Part shown: positions 1,093-63,560 of the stretch, piece after piece
How positions within the stretch are numbered: the stretch's first letter is position 1
How the letters are laid out: each line of letters opens with the position of its first letter
Assembly (NCBI GenBank): GCA_030836185.1
Contig: JAURQH010000019.1
Coordinates: 62,001-126,000 of the forward strand
Direction: 5' to 3'
From: Planctomycetota bacterium
GTDB taxonomy: Bacteria > Planctomycetota > Planctomycetia > Planctomycetales > Planctomycetaceae
Length of the DNA: 64,000 bases
The notes under the pieces: model-generated
The model's input: the letters and a program-made list of their open reading frames with translations, nothing else
Told to the model about the DNA's origin: nothing
Databases searched by the model: none
Program-made: the position numbers and the translations under genes

Positions 1093-2091
1093 ATGTCTGA
1101 ACTACAGCGAATTGCCATCACGGGAAGTTCCGGGTTTTATGGACGTGGGTTGATTGAGCGAATCCGTATGCGATTTCCCGCGGCGACGATTCTGGGGCTC
1201 GATGTGATCGAGCCTTCGGTTCATTCCCCTGATGAATTTATCCAGTGCGACGTGACGAGTCCCGAGCTTGGTCAGCATCTCGAAACCTTCGCGCCTGATA
1301 CAGTCATTCATCTCGCATTTGTTGTGAATCCAATACGTGACACGAATCGAATGCACGCCATTAATGTCGGTGGAACACGGAACCTGCTCACAGCACTCAC
1401 AAAGATTCAACCGGCTCGGTTGTTGGTGTCATCCAGCGCGACTGCGTATGGCGCGTGGGATGATAATCCGATTCCCATTCTGGAAGACCAACCGTTACGT
1501 CCGCGGACGGAATACCGTTATGCACACGACAAGGTTCTCGTCGAAGAGTTACTGGAAGAATTTCGAGAACAGTCACCCGATGTTGCCGTCAGTTGGACGA
1601 GGCCGGCAATCATTTGTGGAGAAGGGATCGACAATTATTTAACGAAGTTTATCGTTCACTCTCCGGTTATGGTTCTTGCTGACGGCCACAACGCCACTTT
1701 TCAGGCTGTCCATCTTGACGATGTTGTTGATTCGACATTAACCATTCTGGAGGCCGATGCCACGGGACCATTCAATGTGGCACCGCCCGACTGGATCACT
1801 TTGAGAGATTTGGCGAAGTTGAAACGACAGTTTTGCCTGAAGAGCCCTTTATTCTTGTGCAGGATGTTTACCAATGTTTGGTGGAGTTTGAGACTTCCCT
1901 TGTATTACTTCCCATCCGGTCTTTGGTATTTCATCCGCTTTCCTTGGGTGGTGACTCCCAATCGTTTGGAAAAAGAACTCGGATACAAGTTTCGCTATTC
2001 GACTTTGGACACCGTTCACCAGATGTTACGTGATGGTGGATATAAAAACATACCCGAAGCAGCAAACGATTCTGGAAGCGAGAGCGCATGA
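1093..2091 (+). CDS. NAD-dependent epimerase/dehydratase (extended SDR)
   Basis: A 332-residue extended short-chain dehydrogenase/reductase. The NAD(P)-binding motif GSSGFYG sits at residues 11-17 after a short beta strand, the catalytic YxxxK is Y143-A-H-D-K147, and a serine-rich stretch near residue 115 supplies the usual Ser. The C-terminal part carries hydrophobic aromatic stretches (near 255-280) that could lie on a membrane. The stop codon overlaps the start of the following hydrolase (ATGA), so the two are probably translationally coupled. The substrate may be a nucleotide sugar or a sterol/ketone-like compound; the sequence does not decide. An oxidation role together with the divergent monooxygenase is inference. 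Confidence 0.85.
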   Translation: MSELQRIAITGSSGFYGRGLIERIRMRFPAATILGLDVIEPSVHSPDEFIQCDVTSPELGQHLETFAPDTVIHLAFVVNPIRDTNRMHAINVGGTRNLLTALTKIQPARLLVSSSATAYGAWDDNPIPILEDQPLRPRTEYRYAHDKVLVEELLEEFREQSPDVAVSWTRPAIICGEGIDNYLTKFIVHSPVMVLADGHNATFQAVHLDDVVDSTLTILEADATGPFNVAPPDWITLRDLAKLKRQFCLKSPLFLCRMFTNVWWSLRLPLYYFPSGLWYFIRFPWVVTPNRLEKELGYKFRYSTLDTVHQMLRDGGYKNIPEAANDSGSESA

Positions 2092-25826: not shown

Positions 25827-25984
25827 CAAGATTTTGTCGATGATCGCCTTCTCCAACGGCTATAACCGTTATTCTCGGTGTTCCTTTTCATAGGTTTTCG
25901 AGGACTTGGGAACAAATCAACTGGAGAGAACGCCCAATATCGTGAATTATAAGGATGTTCCATCTTCACCTGCAGGAATTTGAT

Positions 25985-26923
25985 ATGTCTTCCTACCGAT
26001 TGATTGCCGCCGCTCATACTCCGTTTGATGCGCAGGGAGAATTTCATCCTTCCGCTGTGGAACGTCAGGCCGAATTTTTCTTGAAACAGAATGTCGCAGG
26101 CGTCTTCCCCGGTGGAACGACGGGAGAGTCTCTCTCACTTTCCTTGCAAGAACGCCTTTCTTTGGGAAAACAATGGGTCGATGTGGCGGCGGGAACCGAT
26201 CTGGAAGTGATTCTTCATGTCGGAGCGAACGCACTTCCCGACGCGATTGCATTGTCGGAGCAAGCCGGACAAATCGGCGCTGCCGGAATTGCCGCGATGC
26301 CACCCACTTATTTTCGTCCCGACGGGATCGACATGATTCTTGCGGATCTCAAACGGCTTTCGGTAGCGGCTCCCGAATTACCGATCTACTATTACGACAT
26401 TCCTTCAATGACGGGCGTTGCCGTCGATACGGTGGAGTTGGTCGAAAGAGCGACCGCAGAGATTCCTCAGTTCGGCGGCATCAAATTCTCTCGTCCCGAT
26501 CTTCCCGTTCTCCAAGAGGTACTCGACTCACCCACTTTTCAGGGCGATGTCTTCTTTGGTTCCGATGAAATGATTCTCGCCGCGTGGATGTTCGGTGTCC
26601 GTAGTGCTGTCGGCAGCACCTACAATTTCATGACACCGATGTATCATCAAATGCTGGATGAATTTTCTGCAGGTCATATCGACGCTGCGAGGCAGTTACA
26701 ATTGCAATCTGCCAAGTTGGTTTCTGCCCTGAAGCCATTCGGCTTTCTGGATGCGTCCAAATTGTTAATGCGATTTCTGGGCGTCGATTGCGGCCAAGTA
26801 CGAAGTCCACTGCGAGCACTCACGGAAGAACAAAGTCGAACGCTGTTTGAGACTTTGGAACCGTTTGCTGATTTATTTCCGTCTTCGCTGACATTCACGC
26901 CAGCGGTCACCGTAAATAGCTAA
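25985..26923 (+). CDS. Dihydrodipicolinate synthase/N-acetylneuraminate lyase family aldolase
   Basis: 312 residues of the class I aldolase DapA/NanA superfamily. Carboxylate-binding GTTGE is at 44-48, the catalytic tyrosine at Y137 (IYYYDIPSMTG) and the Schiff-base lysine at K167 (GGIKFSRPDL). The start at 25985 is preferred to an ATG at 25955 because family similarity begins at SYRLIAAAHTPF. The sequence after the lysine (FFGSDEMILAAWMFG) fits neuraminate lyase-like members better than DapA. It could cleave sialic acid or a related keto acid; context does not decide. Confidence 0.85.
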   Translation: MSSYRLIAAAHTPFDAQGEFHPSAVERQAEFFLKQNVAGVFPGGTTGESLSLSLQERLSLGKQWVDVAAGTDLEVILHVGANALPDAIALSEQAGQIGAAGIAAMPPTYFRPDGIDMILADLKRLSVAAPELPIYYYDIPSMTGVAVDTVELVERATAEIPQFGGIKFSRPDLPVLQEVLDSPTFQGDVFFGSDEMILAAWMFGVRSAVGSTYNFMTPMYHQMLDEFSAGHIDAARQLQLQSAKLVSALKPFGFLDASKLLMRFLGVDCGQVRSPLRALTEEQSRTLFETLEPFADLFPSSLTFTPAVTVNS

Positions 26924-26945
26924 ACTCCTTCCGGTTACAGTTTCT

Positions 26946-26975
26946 TAGCCCGATGTGCGCAAGCACTTGGGATAG
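26946..26975 (+). repeat. REP-like hairpin repeat, copy 1
   Basis: A 30-base element with conserved ends TAGCCC and GGGATAG and a hairpin GTGC-GCAA-GCAC. Similar elements lie at 55373-55402 (+) and 63531-63560 (-). All share TAGCCC, a C(A)AAGC-loop hairpin and a GGGAT(A/G)G end. All three are intergenic. Confidence 0.6.
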
Positions 26976-26979
26976 AGCC

Positions 26980-27124
26980 TGTAGGGCCGGTTCCACCGGC
27001 CAGAGTTGCCGTGTGTCTCACATTGTTTTTGGAACTGCCGCAGAAATACGGTTCCAATCTTTTATGACATTGAAGAAGCGTGAGAAGAATGAGTTGTTTT
27101 CAGGCCGGTCGAACCGGCCCTACA
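26980..27124. repeat. Inverted pair of GGCCGGT palindromes (BIME-like)
   Basis: Two 22-base elements (26980-27001 and 27103-27124) are inverted copies with one mismatch. Each begins, from the outside, with TGTAGGG and contains a 7-bp hairpin: GGCCGGT-TCC-ACCGGCC and GGCCGGT-CGA-ACCGGCC. About 100 bases lie between. The layout is that of a bacterial interspersed mosaic element. It sits between two convergent genes, next to a copy of the other repeat family. Confidence 0.75.
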
Positions 27125-27132
27125 ATTCTGGT

Positions 27133-27525
27133 TCAATCCAACATCGGCGTTGCCCGTTTCACCAATTGCAGAGTGATGCCCCATGGATCGCGAACGAACG
27201 TCATCGCATCACCACCGGGAAGATCTTCAATCCCATCCGTCACAGCGGCCGCTCCGGCTTTCAGCAGTCTCTCTCGATCTGCTTCGAGATCCATTGAAAC
27301 AAATGCCAGGTGCATTGTGGCAGGCGCGATCTGCGGATAGTCGAAAACGGGTTGCGATTTGTTGCCATAAATTTCGATCATAAAACTGCCATGCTCATCG
27401 ACGATGAAATGAGCCCATGGTGGTTCCATCACTTTCCGTTTAATGGAGAACCCCAGATGCTCGCAATACCAGCGAGCCATGCCGTTGGGGTCTGAAACAT
27501 TGAAAGCAATATGCTCGACACGCAT
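27133..27525 (-). CDS. VOC (glyoxalase/dioxygenase-fold) protein
   Basis: 130 residues. The ATG at 27525 is chosen for its AAGGA and because the fold starts at MRVEHIAFNVSDP. The vicinal-oxygen-chelate pattern shows as WYCEHLGFSIKRK, HFIVDEHGSFMIEIYG, MHLAFVSMDLEADRERLLKAGA and FVRDPWGITLQLVKR. H5, the His of MHLAF and the Glu of MIEIYG or near the end could bind metal. Members include lyases, dioxygenases and resistance proteins; none can be singled out. It is behind a membrane kinase-like gene, with a 68-base gap. Confidence 0.8.
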   Translation of the reverse strand: MRVEHIAFNVSDPNGMARWYCEHLGFSIKRKVMEPPWAHFIVDEHGSFMIEIYGNKSQPVFDYPQIAPATMHLAFVSMDLEADRERLLKAGAAAVTDGIEDLPGGDAMTFVRDPWGITLQLVKRATPMLD

Positions 27526-27593
27526 GCGAAGGAGTCCTTGATCGATGTGGCGAAAAATAGCTGGCAACATTCCGAACGATACTGCGTGTGATC

Positions 27594-28280
27594 TCAAAAG
27601 CCCAGCACAAAATATTGGGCAATCGGTGCGACGATAACAGCCACGATTCCCACACGAACATTATCATTGAGTCGCACGGGGAGTGATTCTGCGATGGCTG
27701 CACAGATCGAAGTGGGAGCGGCAATCAGAAATGCCGACATCCAATCGACTCCGGGATTCGCTTCACCCCAGTAAATGACAGAGGCCATGATGGTCCCCAT
27801 CAAAATGAACGAGAACATGCCGGACACGGTTTTGTCATCATTCCAGGGAAGTGAACGACTGGGAAAGACCAAGCCGCCAAATGTCGCACTGCCATCACCA
27901 AAGGCAAGAACAGCCAACACGGCAAAGCCAATTTCGGGATGTGCCGGGAACAATAGCAAAGCACCCAGCACACTCATCACATATCCGAGAACTGCTTCGG
28001 CTCGATTTTCTGAACTGTCACGACTGACATGTCGGAACTTGACGTAAATACTCCCGGCAACAAGAACGGCCACCGCGAGAATAATCAGCTTGAGTGTTGG
28101 AGACAGTGGGTCAGCATGCTCAATCGGCCAGAGGACAAACGGGGTGAATCCCGGAAGCATGTGCCACATACGGCGACGTAATTCGCGTCGGCTCAGTTTC
28201 CCGGCAACCAGATTCAAGGGAACAGCGTTCTGTGAATCCGCAAGCTGCTTGGCGTGACTTGAATTTGGAACGGTACTCAT
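27594..28280 (-). CDS. Dolichol kinase/phosphatidate cytidylyltransferase-like membrane enzyme
   Basis: 228 residues with about six hydrophobic segments. The N-terminal RRELRRRMWHMLPG matches the RRxxxH start of CTP-dependent polyprenol/diacylglycerol kinases (SEC59/DGK1/VTE5 group), and VLAFGDGSATFGGL with WNDDKTVSGMFSF fits the CTP-binding GD..A..G and K(S/T)x.G motifs of that group. It probably phosphorylates a lipid alcohol such as an isoprenoid, farnesol or phytol in the membrane. The first VOC gene downstream may be cotranscribed. The precise lipid substrate is unknown. Confidence 0.75.
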   Translation of the reverse strand: MSTVPNSSHAKQLADSQNAVPLNLVAGKLSRRELRRRMWHMLPGFTPFVLWPIEHADPLSPTLKLIILAVAVLVAGSIYVKFRHVSRDSSENRAEAVLGYVMSVLGALLLFPAHPEIGFAVLAVLAFGDGSATFGGLVFPSRSLPWNDDKTVSGMFSFILMGTIMASVIYWGEANPGVDWMSAFLIAAPTSICAAIAESLPVRLNDNVRVGIVAVIVAPIAQYFVLGF

Positions 28281-55372: not shown

Positions 55373-55402
55373 TAGCCCTGGAGCACAAGCTCCGGGGATG
55401 GG
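55373..55402 (+). repeat. REP-like hairpin repeat, copy 2
   Basis: TAGCCC, then a strong hairpin GGAGC-ACAA-GCTCC, then GGGGATGGG. It is in the gap between the PSD1 and DUF1501 genes. Same family as 26946-26975 and 63531-63560. Confidence 0.7.
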
Positions 55403-63530: not shown

Positions 63531-63560
63531 CCCATCCCCAGAGCTTGCGCTCTTGGGCTA
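63531..63560 (-). repeat. REP-like hairpin repeat, copy 3
   Basis: Read on the minus strand: TAGCCC, hairpin AGAGC-GCAA-GCTCT, and GGGGATGGG. It lies between the fuconate dehydratase and ThuA-like genes. Same family as 26946-26975 and 55373-55402. Confidence 0.7.

Follow-up and report, generated by a model that had tools for sequence, protein, structure and literature searches.

The window analysed here is a stretch of 64,000 nucleotides from a planctomycete draft assembly of 5.16 Mb in 107 contigs (G000). In it, two convergent genes enclose a gap of 209 bp (26924-27132) that holds two kinds of small hairpins: a pair of GTAG-tagged GGCCGGT palindromes (REPs) and, to their left, a single hairpin of a second family. 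In window numbering, the features are:

25955-26923, plus strand: DHDPS-family gene (PF00701), left convergent gene, 322 aa
26946-26971, plus strand: second-family hairpin (the "30-base repeat"), TAG tag and stem-loop with one bulged base
26981-27123, no strand: whole REPIN, 143 bp from GTAG to CTAC, alignable end to end with G000:C87:6921-7055
26981-27001, plus strand: left GTAG-tagged REP, GTAG followed by GGCCGGT-TCC-ACCGGCC, from the pattern search
27002-27102, no strand: REPIN spacer, 101 bp, from the spacer alignment with the C87 pair
27103-27123, minus strand: right GTAG-tagged REP, GTAG followed by GGCCGGT-TCG-ACCGGCC, from the pattern search
27133-27597, minus strand: glyoxalase/VOC-family gene (PF00903), right convergent gene, 154 aa

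The two palindromes, TGTAGGGCCGGTTCCACCGGCC and TGTAGGGCCGGTTCGACCGGCC, differ by one base. The GTAG tetranucleotide lies directly 5' of the hairpin in both copies and faces outward at both ends of the pair, which is thus arranged head to head; with their TGTAGGG outer ends included, the palindromes span 26980-27001 (plus strand) and 27103-27124 (minus strand). The first-pass annotation of this DNA had described inverted GGCCGGT palindromes with TGTAGGG outermost and a single-base difference, lying between convergent genes, and both its sequence and its coordinates are borne out: the DHDPS gene ends at 26923 and the VOC gene at 27133. It had also placed the pair four bases after a 30-base repeat, which is accurate when counted from the end of the 30-base unit; from the second-family hairpin itself to the left GTAG hairpin (26971 to 26981) there are nine bases between. 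Single-strand DNA folding of the gap gave a z of -5.6. No Rfam match was obtained up to E 1 within 26800-27250, and plasmid records contained no match for 26920-27130. A sigma-70-like match (9 of 12; 0.2 expected in shuffles), at the level of consensus only, overlaps the right hairpin at 27097-27126.

The GGCCGGT hairpin belongs to a multicopy family. Allowing up to 3 mismatches, the window alone yields 4 rows (the two palindromes, each on both strands) against 0.04 expected by chance. A genome-wide search had been proposed by the first-pass annotation, for which a single occurrence, together with no effect on RNA 3' ends, would have spoken against its reading; the pattern TGTAGGGCCGGTNNNACCGGCC was found at 48 sites with up to 2 mismatches, and the reversed-pattern control at none. 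With at most 1 mismatch, 41 of the 47 rows of this genome are exactly GTAGGGCCGGTNNNACCGGCC; as GTAG is inside the search pattern, these exact matches show only that the GTAG is rarely broken. Searching for the 21-base core at the same threshold identified 11 positive genomes out of 59, this one included, with 47 rows here, 26 and 16 in two congeners, 15 and 41 in two family members, and 1 to 6 sites in each of the other six. The reversed core gave one match in each of 3 of the 59 genomes, none of them among the positives. In the named collection, 12 stretches match all 22 bases exactly; they are titled Planctomycetales, Planctomycetaceae, Pirellulaceae, Rhodopirellula and Fuerstiella.

The family is largely extragenic: among 30 hand-picked sites or pairs, 23 lie between ORFs, 4 inside an ORF and 3 at an edge, according to crude ORF calls. 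Of the 16 sites of G002, 5 align through the site with a site of this genome, and of the 18 regions of G001, 1 clearly does; the family therefore turns over. Many single hairpins of this genome sit inside longer repeats. Direct tandem arrays with one GGCCGGT hairpin per unit of ~150-160 bp are present on contigs C61 and C18 and at the end of C45 (L013, L022, L081).

The window pair had been called BIME-like, and correctly: it is a head-to-head REP doublet, or REPIN. Within 260 bp and with up to 3 mismatches, this genome contains four head-to-head pairs, of 64, 71, 135 and 143 bp (8 sites, most sites being outside doublets), and six direct-repeat pairs. The window pair (143 bp) aligns with the pair at G000:C87:6921-7055 (135 bp) at 72% from GTAG to CTAC, the neighbouring hairpin being left out. 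Because the hairpins make up 42 bases of each, the spacers were also aligned without them: the 101-bp window spacer and the 93-bp C87 spacer agree at 65 of 90 aligned bases, for a score of 21, compared to a mean of -5.8 and a best of 9 in 1000 shuffles. In the congener G001, head-to-head pairs of 71 bp were found in 7 of the 18 fetched regions; they represent six distinct sequences, one pair having a 2-mismatch partner, and one further region carries a 64-bp pair. All seven 29-base spacers of G001 resemble the C35 spacer of this genome (0 of 500 shuffles as good, for each). Their likeness to the right end of the window spacer is weaker, with 0 or 1 of 500 shuffles as good, and that between the short C35 spacer and the same right end is weak (11 of 1000 shuffles as good). 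The related spacers, window with C87 and G001 with C35, indicate that what is repeated there is the doublet. A chance assembly of palindromes without common origin has only the short length of the unit in its favour; it is refuted by the 48 sites against no reversed-pattern match, by the homology of the window and C87 spacers and by the linkage of GGCCGGT hairpins to RAYT genes described below, and we give it practically no weight.

A gene encoding a predicted RAYT lies at G000:C45:78740-79300, enclosed by GTAGGGCCGGT-N3-ACCGGCC hairpins at -30 and +38 bp, head to head. It was located by tblastn with the RAYT of contig C82, to which it is 54% identical, inside a locus fetched for its hairpins. 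It forms one open frame of 187 aa with no internal stop and scores 179 bits against NF047646 (REP-associated tyrosine transposase; cut-off 80); the motifs DHLHT and DYIHYNP were read by eye, and the Pfam Y1_Tnp model gave no match. Two RAYT fragments also occur, one at C15:112063-112359, which is 90% identical to the C45 RAYT and directly beside a GGCCGGT hairpin, and one at C67:28377-28748, which is 44% identical to it. The six RAYT genes of this genome found with Pfam were considered as cognate enzymes and rejected, having no flanking GGCCGGT hairpins. The C82 RAYT, a paralogue and the second with an open frame (L036, G000:C82:30546-33905; 1336-1905, minus strand), is flanked head to head by hairpins of a REP other than the GGCCGGT one, given as GTAGGGCAGGG or GTAGGGCAGGGGCCTCCCTGCC.

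We then compared hairpins and enzymes across genomes. Searching 120 genomes of the family at E up to 1e-30 returned matches in 49, this genome included (83 rows), and 30 of the corresponding loci were fetched and inspected. GTAG hairpins were present on both sides in 21 of the 30 and on at least one side in 28. The seven best-scoring loci (that of this genome included) have GTAGGGCCGGT-N-ACCGGCC no more than 300 bp away, a cut chosen after the result was seen; the remaining 23 lack it and have different GTAG stems (GGCAGG, GGTCCGC, GTCAGG and so on), with the near stem GGCCGGC at two of them and no GTAG stem at two. With a fixed cut at 60% identity, the GGCCGGT hairpin was present at 5 of 5 loci above it versus 2 of 25 below (P = 1.5e-4, a value which is only a guide as the loci are related). 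These data show that hairpin type follows RAYT similarity over the 30 loci. This simple rule carries the pairing of RAYTs with REPs into a family that is probably planctomycete, and the 30 loci provide ready enzyme/substrate pairs for specificity tests.

The history of the gap could be followed in two congeners, in which both genes persist with order and convergence unchanged (VOC 95% and 85% identical, DHDPS 91% and 81%, over the aligned parts). The orthologous gap is 23 bp long in G002 and 63 bp in G001 and contains none of these repeats. On this comparison the block was probably gained in the lineage of the present genome: G002 is the closer of the two by protein identity, and one gain is simpler than two losses, loss in both congeners being possible. 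No exact empty-site junction or intermediate was seen, the gaps of 23 and 63 bp being too short for an exact junction.

These same gaps bear on a suggestion of the first-pass annotation, that the block is a transcription barrier. If it were kept by selection as such a barrier, or as a bidirectional mRNA 3' end, its place between convergent stop codons and the strong RNA fold of the gap (z -7.0), in which a long hairpin joins the two REPs, would be accounted for, and REPs elsewhere are reported, in the portions of PMC3733652 available, to occupy mainly the spaces of convergent and co-directional gene pairs. However, the block is absent between these genes in both congeners, the scan for a hairpin followed by a T-run terminator found 0 against 0.5 expected, and the family is also found between co-directional and, rarely, divergent genes. 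Among the 30 hand-picked sites or pairs, gene orientation (crude ORF calls) was co-directional in 12 cases, convergent in 9, the window and the RAYT locus among them, and divergent in 2. We consider selection for such a transcriptional role unlikely.

The second hairpin of the gap differs in kind from the REPs. The window copy consists of a TAG tag (26946-26948) and a stem-loop, CCCGATGTGC-GCAA-GCACTTGGG (26949-26971), with one bulged base. The 30-base repeat of the first-pass annotation does not hold up as identical letters, a search allowing up to 3 mismatches giving 1 match genome-wide, but it does as a hairpin of variable stem: the pattern TAGCC-N4..8-GCNCAAGC-N4..8-GG gave 83 rows in the genome against 1 for the control, from which 56 distinct sites were derived manually, three of them in the window (26946-26971, 55373-55396 and 63536-63560). 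As far as the sequences go, it was correct to describe two unrelated families, as stems, loops and distribution differ; a TAG just 5' of the hairpin is common to both. GTAG is not the usual tag of this second family, which mostly has ATAG (TTAG in the window copy, GTAG in 2 of the 7 hairpins of L145). Among 22 distinct 25-base members, a set outside which the 26-base window copy falls, 90.9% of stem cells are paired versus 72.4% in shuffles (0 of 500 reach this value), and the covariation score is 0.433 versus 0.118 (again 0 of 500), slid controls giving at most 0.114. Cruder covariation measures do not stand out: both-side changes number 5 versus 4.4 (195 of 500 shuffles) and further pair types 14 versus 12.1 (87 of 500). 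Four of the nine stem pairs are invariant, set wholly or largely by the search pattern, and at one pair position 10 of the 22 members lack pairing.

The variable-stem family is abundant in G002 (169 rows, control 3) and at background in G001 (5 rows, control 6); rows do not rise above background in G012 (1, control 4), G003 (0, control 14) and G024 (0, control 5). We could not link a transposase to this family. A variable-stem hairpin is present in the fetched locus (the gene and up to 1.5 kb on each side) of 2 of 5 RAYT matches, from three genomes, that resemble class 3, a label based on comparing motifs with the description in the sections available of PMC6006769; G001 has two such class-3-like genes, yet its variable-stem rows stand at the background level given above. 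It is conceivable, as a tentative proposal, that this family (TAG-CC-N5-GCGCAAGC-N5-GG) represents a mobile hairpin class of its own, not described before, with a fixed loop and CC/GG base and stem changes compensated within one genome; its mobility would then depend on another enzyme, possibly a class-3 RAYT, and its expansion would be confined to two species of the genus. Of the two families in the gap, this one, with its compensated stem changes inside a single genome, is the less well understood. Dispersed repeats reaching ~400 bp contain some of its copies, several of them at contig ends; one such repeat (L214-L221, L233) contains TAGCCATTGTGCGCAAGCACATTGG, is often at contig ends and may explain assembly breaks.

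As the two families meet in this gap, we asked whether the gap, or one of the families, is a preferred landing site for the other, as the first-pass annotation had suggested. A variable-stem hairpin lies within 300 bp of a GGCCGGT site in 5 of 57 cases, when 0.28 would be expected under uniform placement (P about 1e-5); a variable-stem pair at C75:81548 and 81580 has a diverged hairpin, not one of the 48 sites, at a distance of ~90 bp or less, and in G002 such a hairpin is found within ~150 bp in 3 of 16 GGCCGGT regions. However, three of the five cases (C72, C79 and C50) represent a single repeated element in several copies, to which C10 shows partial relatedness, and this leaves few independent events of co-location. 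Moreover, if 15% or 10% of the genome is assumed to be open to insertion, the expectation rises to 1.8 or 2.8 (P = 0.04 or 0.15), before the copies are collapsed. No variable-stem hairpin was near any of the 18 GGCCGGT regions of G001, a count that says little since G001 is nearly devoid of the family. The suggestion is thus weakly supported at best, the neighbours being mostly copies of one element, and a landing preference appears improbable. The element shared by C72, C50 and C79 (L016, L082, L088) aligns over up to 574 bp at 86-91% and holds both GGCCGGT and variable-stem hairpins.

Taken together, these results lead us to conclude that the pair at 26981-27123 is very probably a REPIN, a non-autonomous head-to-head doublet of GTAG-tagged REPs, and was probably dispersed by the RAYT encoded at G000:C45:78740-79300. 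Dispersal is favoured because the family is multicopy, the doublet carries its GTAG outward, the C87 spacer is related, a cognate RAYT lies inside a REP pair, hairpin and RAYT correspond across loci and the congener gaps are without the block. The predicted TnpA-REP (an HUH/Y1 enzyme) from C45 would act on GTAG-tagged REP doublets: by analogy with published work on other bacteria, it would cut the single-stranded REP at or near the GTAG and then copy or move the doublet. The second-family hairpin at 26946-26971 would have been inserted, or have arisen, independently of the REPIN, and insertion in a gap downstream of two genes was probably harmless or nearly so.

The hairpin pair in the gap is an ordinary, known kind of small bacterial mobile DNA, well supported as a REPIN. 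GTAG repeats have been reported in the PVC superphylum, with several REP families in R. baltica, in the available portions of Di Nocera et al. 2013 (PMC3733652). In those parts of the REP, RAYT and planctomycete literature that were found, the GGCCGGT stem is not named, the 24 consensus sequences and the supplements of PMC3733652 being outside this comparison. As far as that paper's accessible text describes it, the GTAG-tagged REP superfamily shares with the present hairpins an unpaired GTAG 5' of a short perfect hairpin, a small loop, a mostly intergenic location and head-to-head dimers. The window pair is likewise similar to the REPIN outlined in excerpts of Bertels and Rainey 2011 (PMC3116915), an inverted REP doublet with a spacer that folds as one hairpin and is tied to a specific RAYT; it differs from that description in its length, the window copy reaching 143 bp where most doublets seen in G001 measure 71 bp, and in that the majority of this genome's sites stand outside doublets. 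The C45 RAYT gene between inverted cognate REPs corresponds to the REPtron, a tnpA-REP flanked by its REPs, as presented in the consulted parts of PMC8266576 and PMC6006769, where enzyme-hairpin pairing is described for other bacteria; the same pairing pattern was observed over the 30 loci here. The palindrome is perfect, as in the "group 3" type of those passages, and hairpin and enzyme vary together, whereas the present case concerns a probable planctomycete lineage, with RAYT fragments also at C15 and C67.
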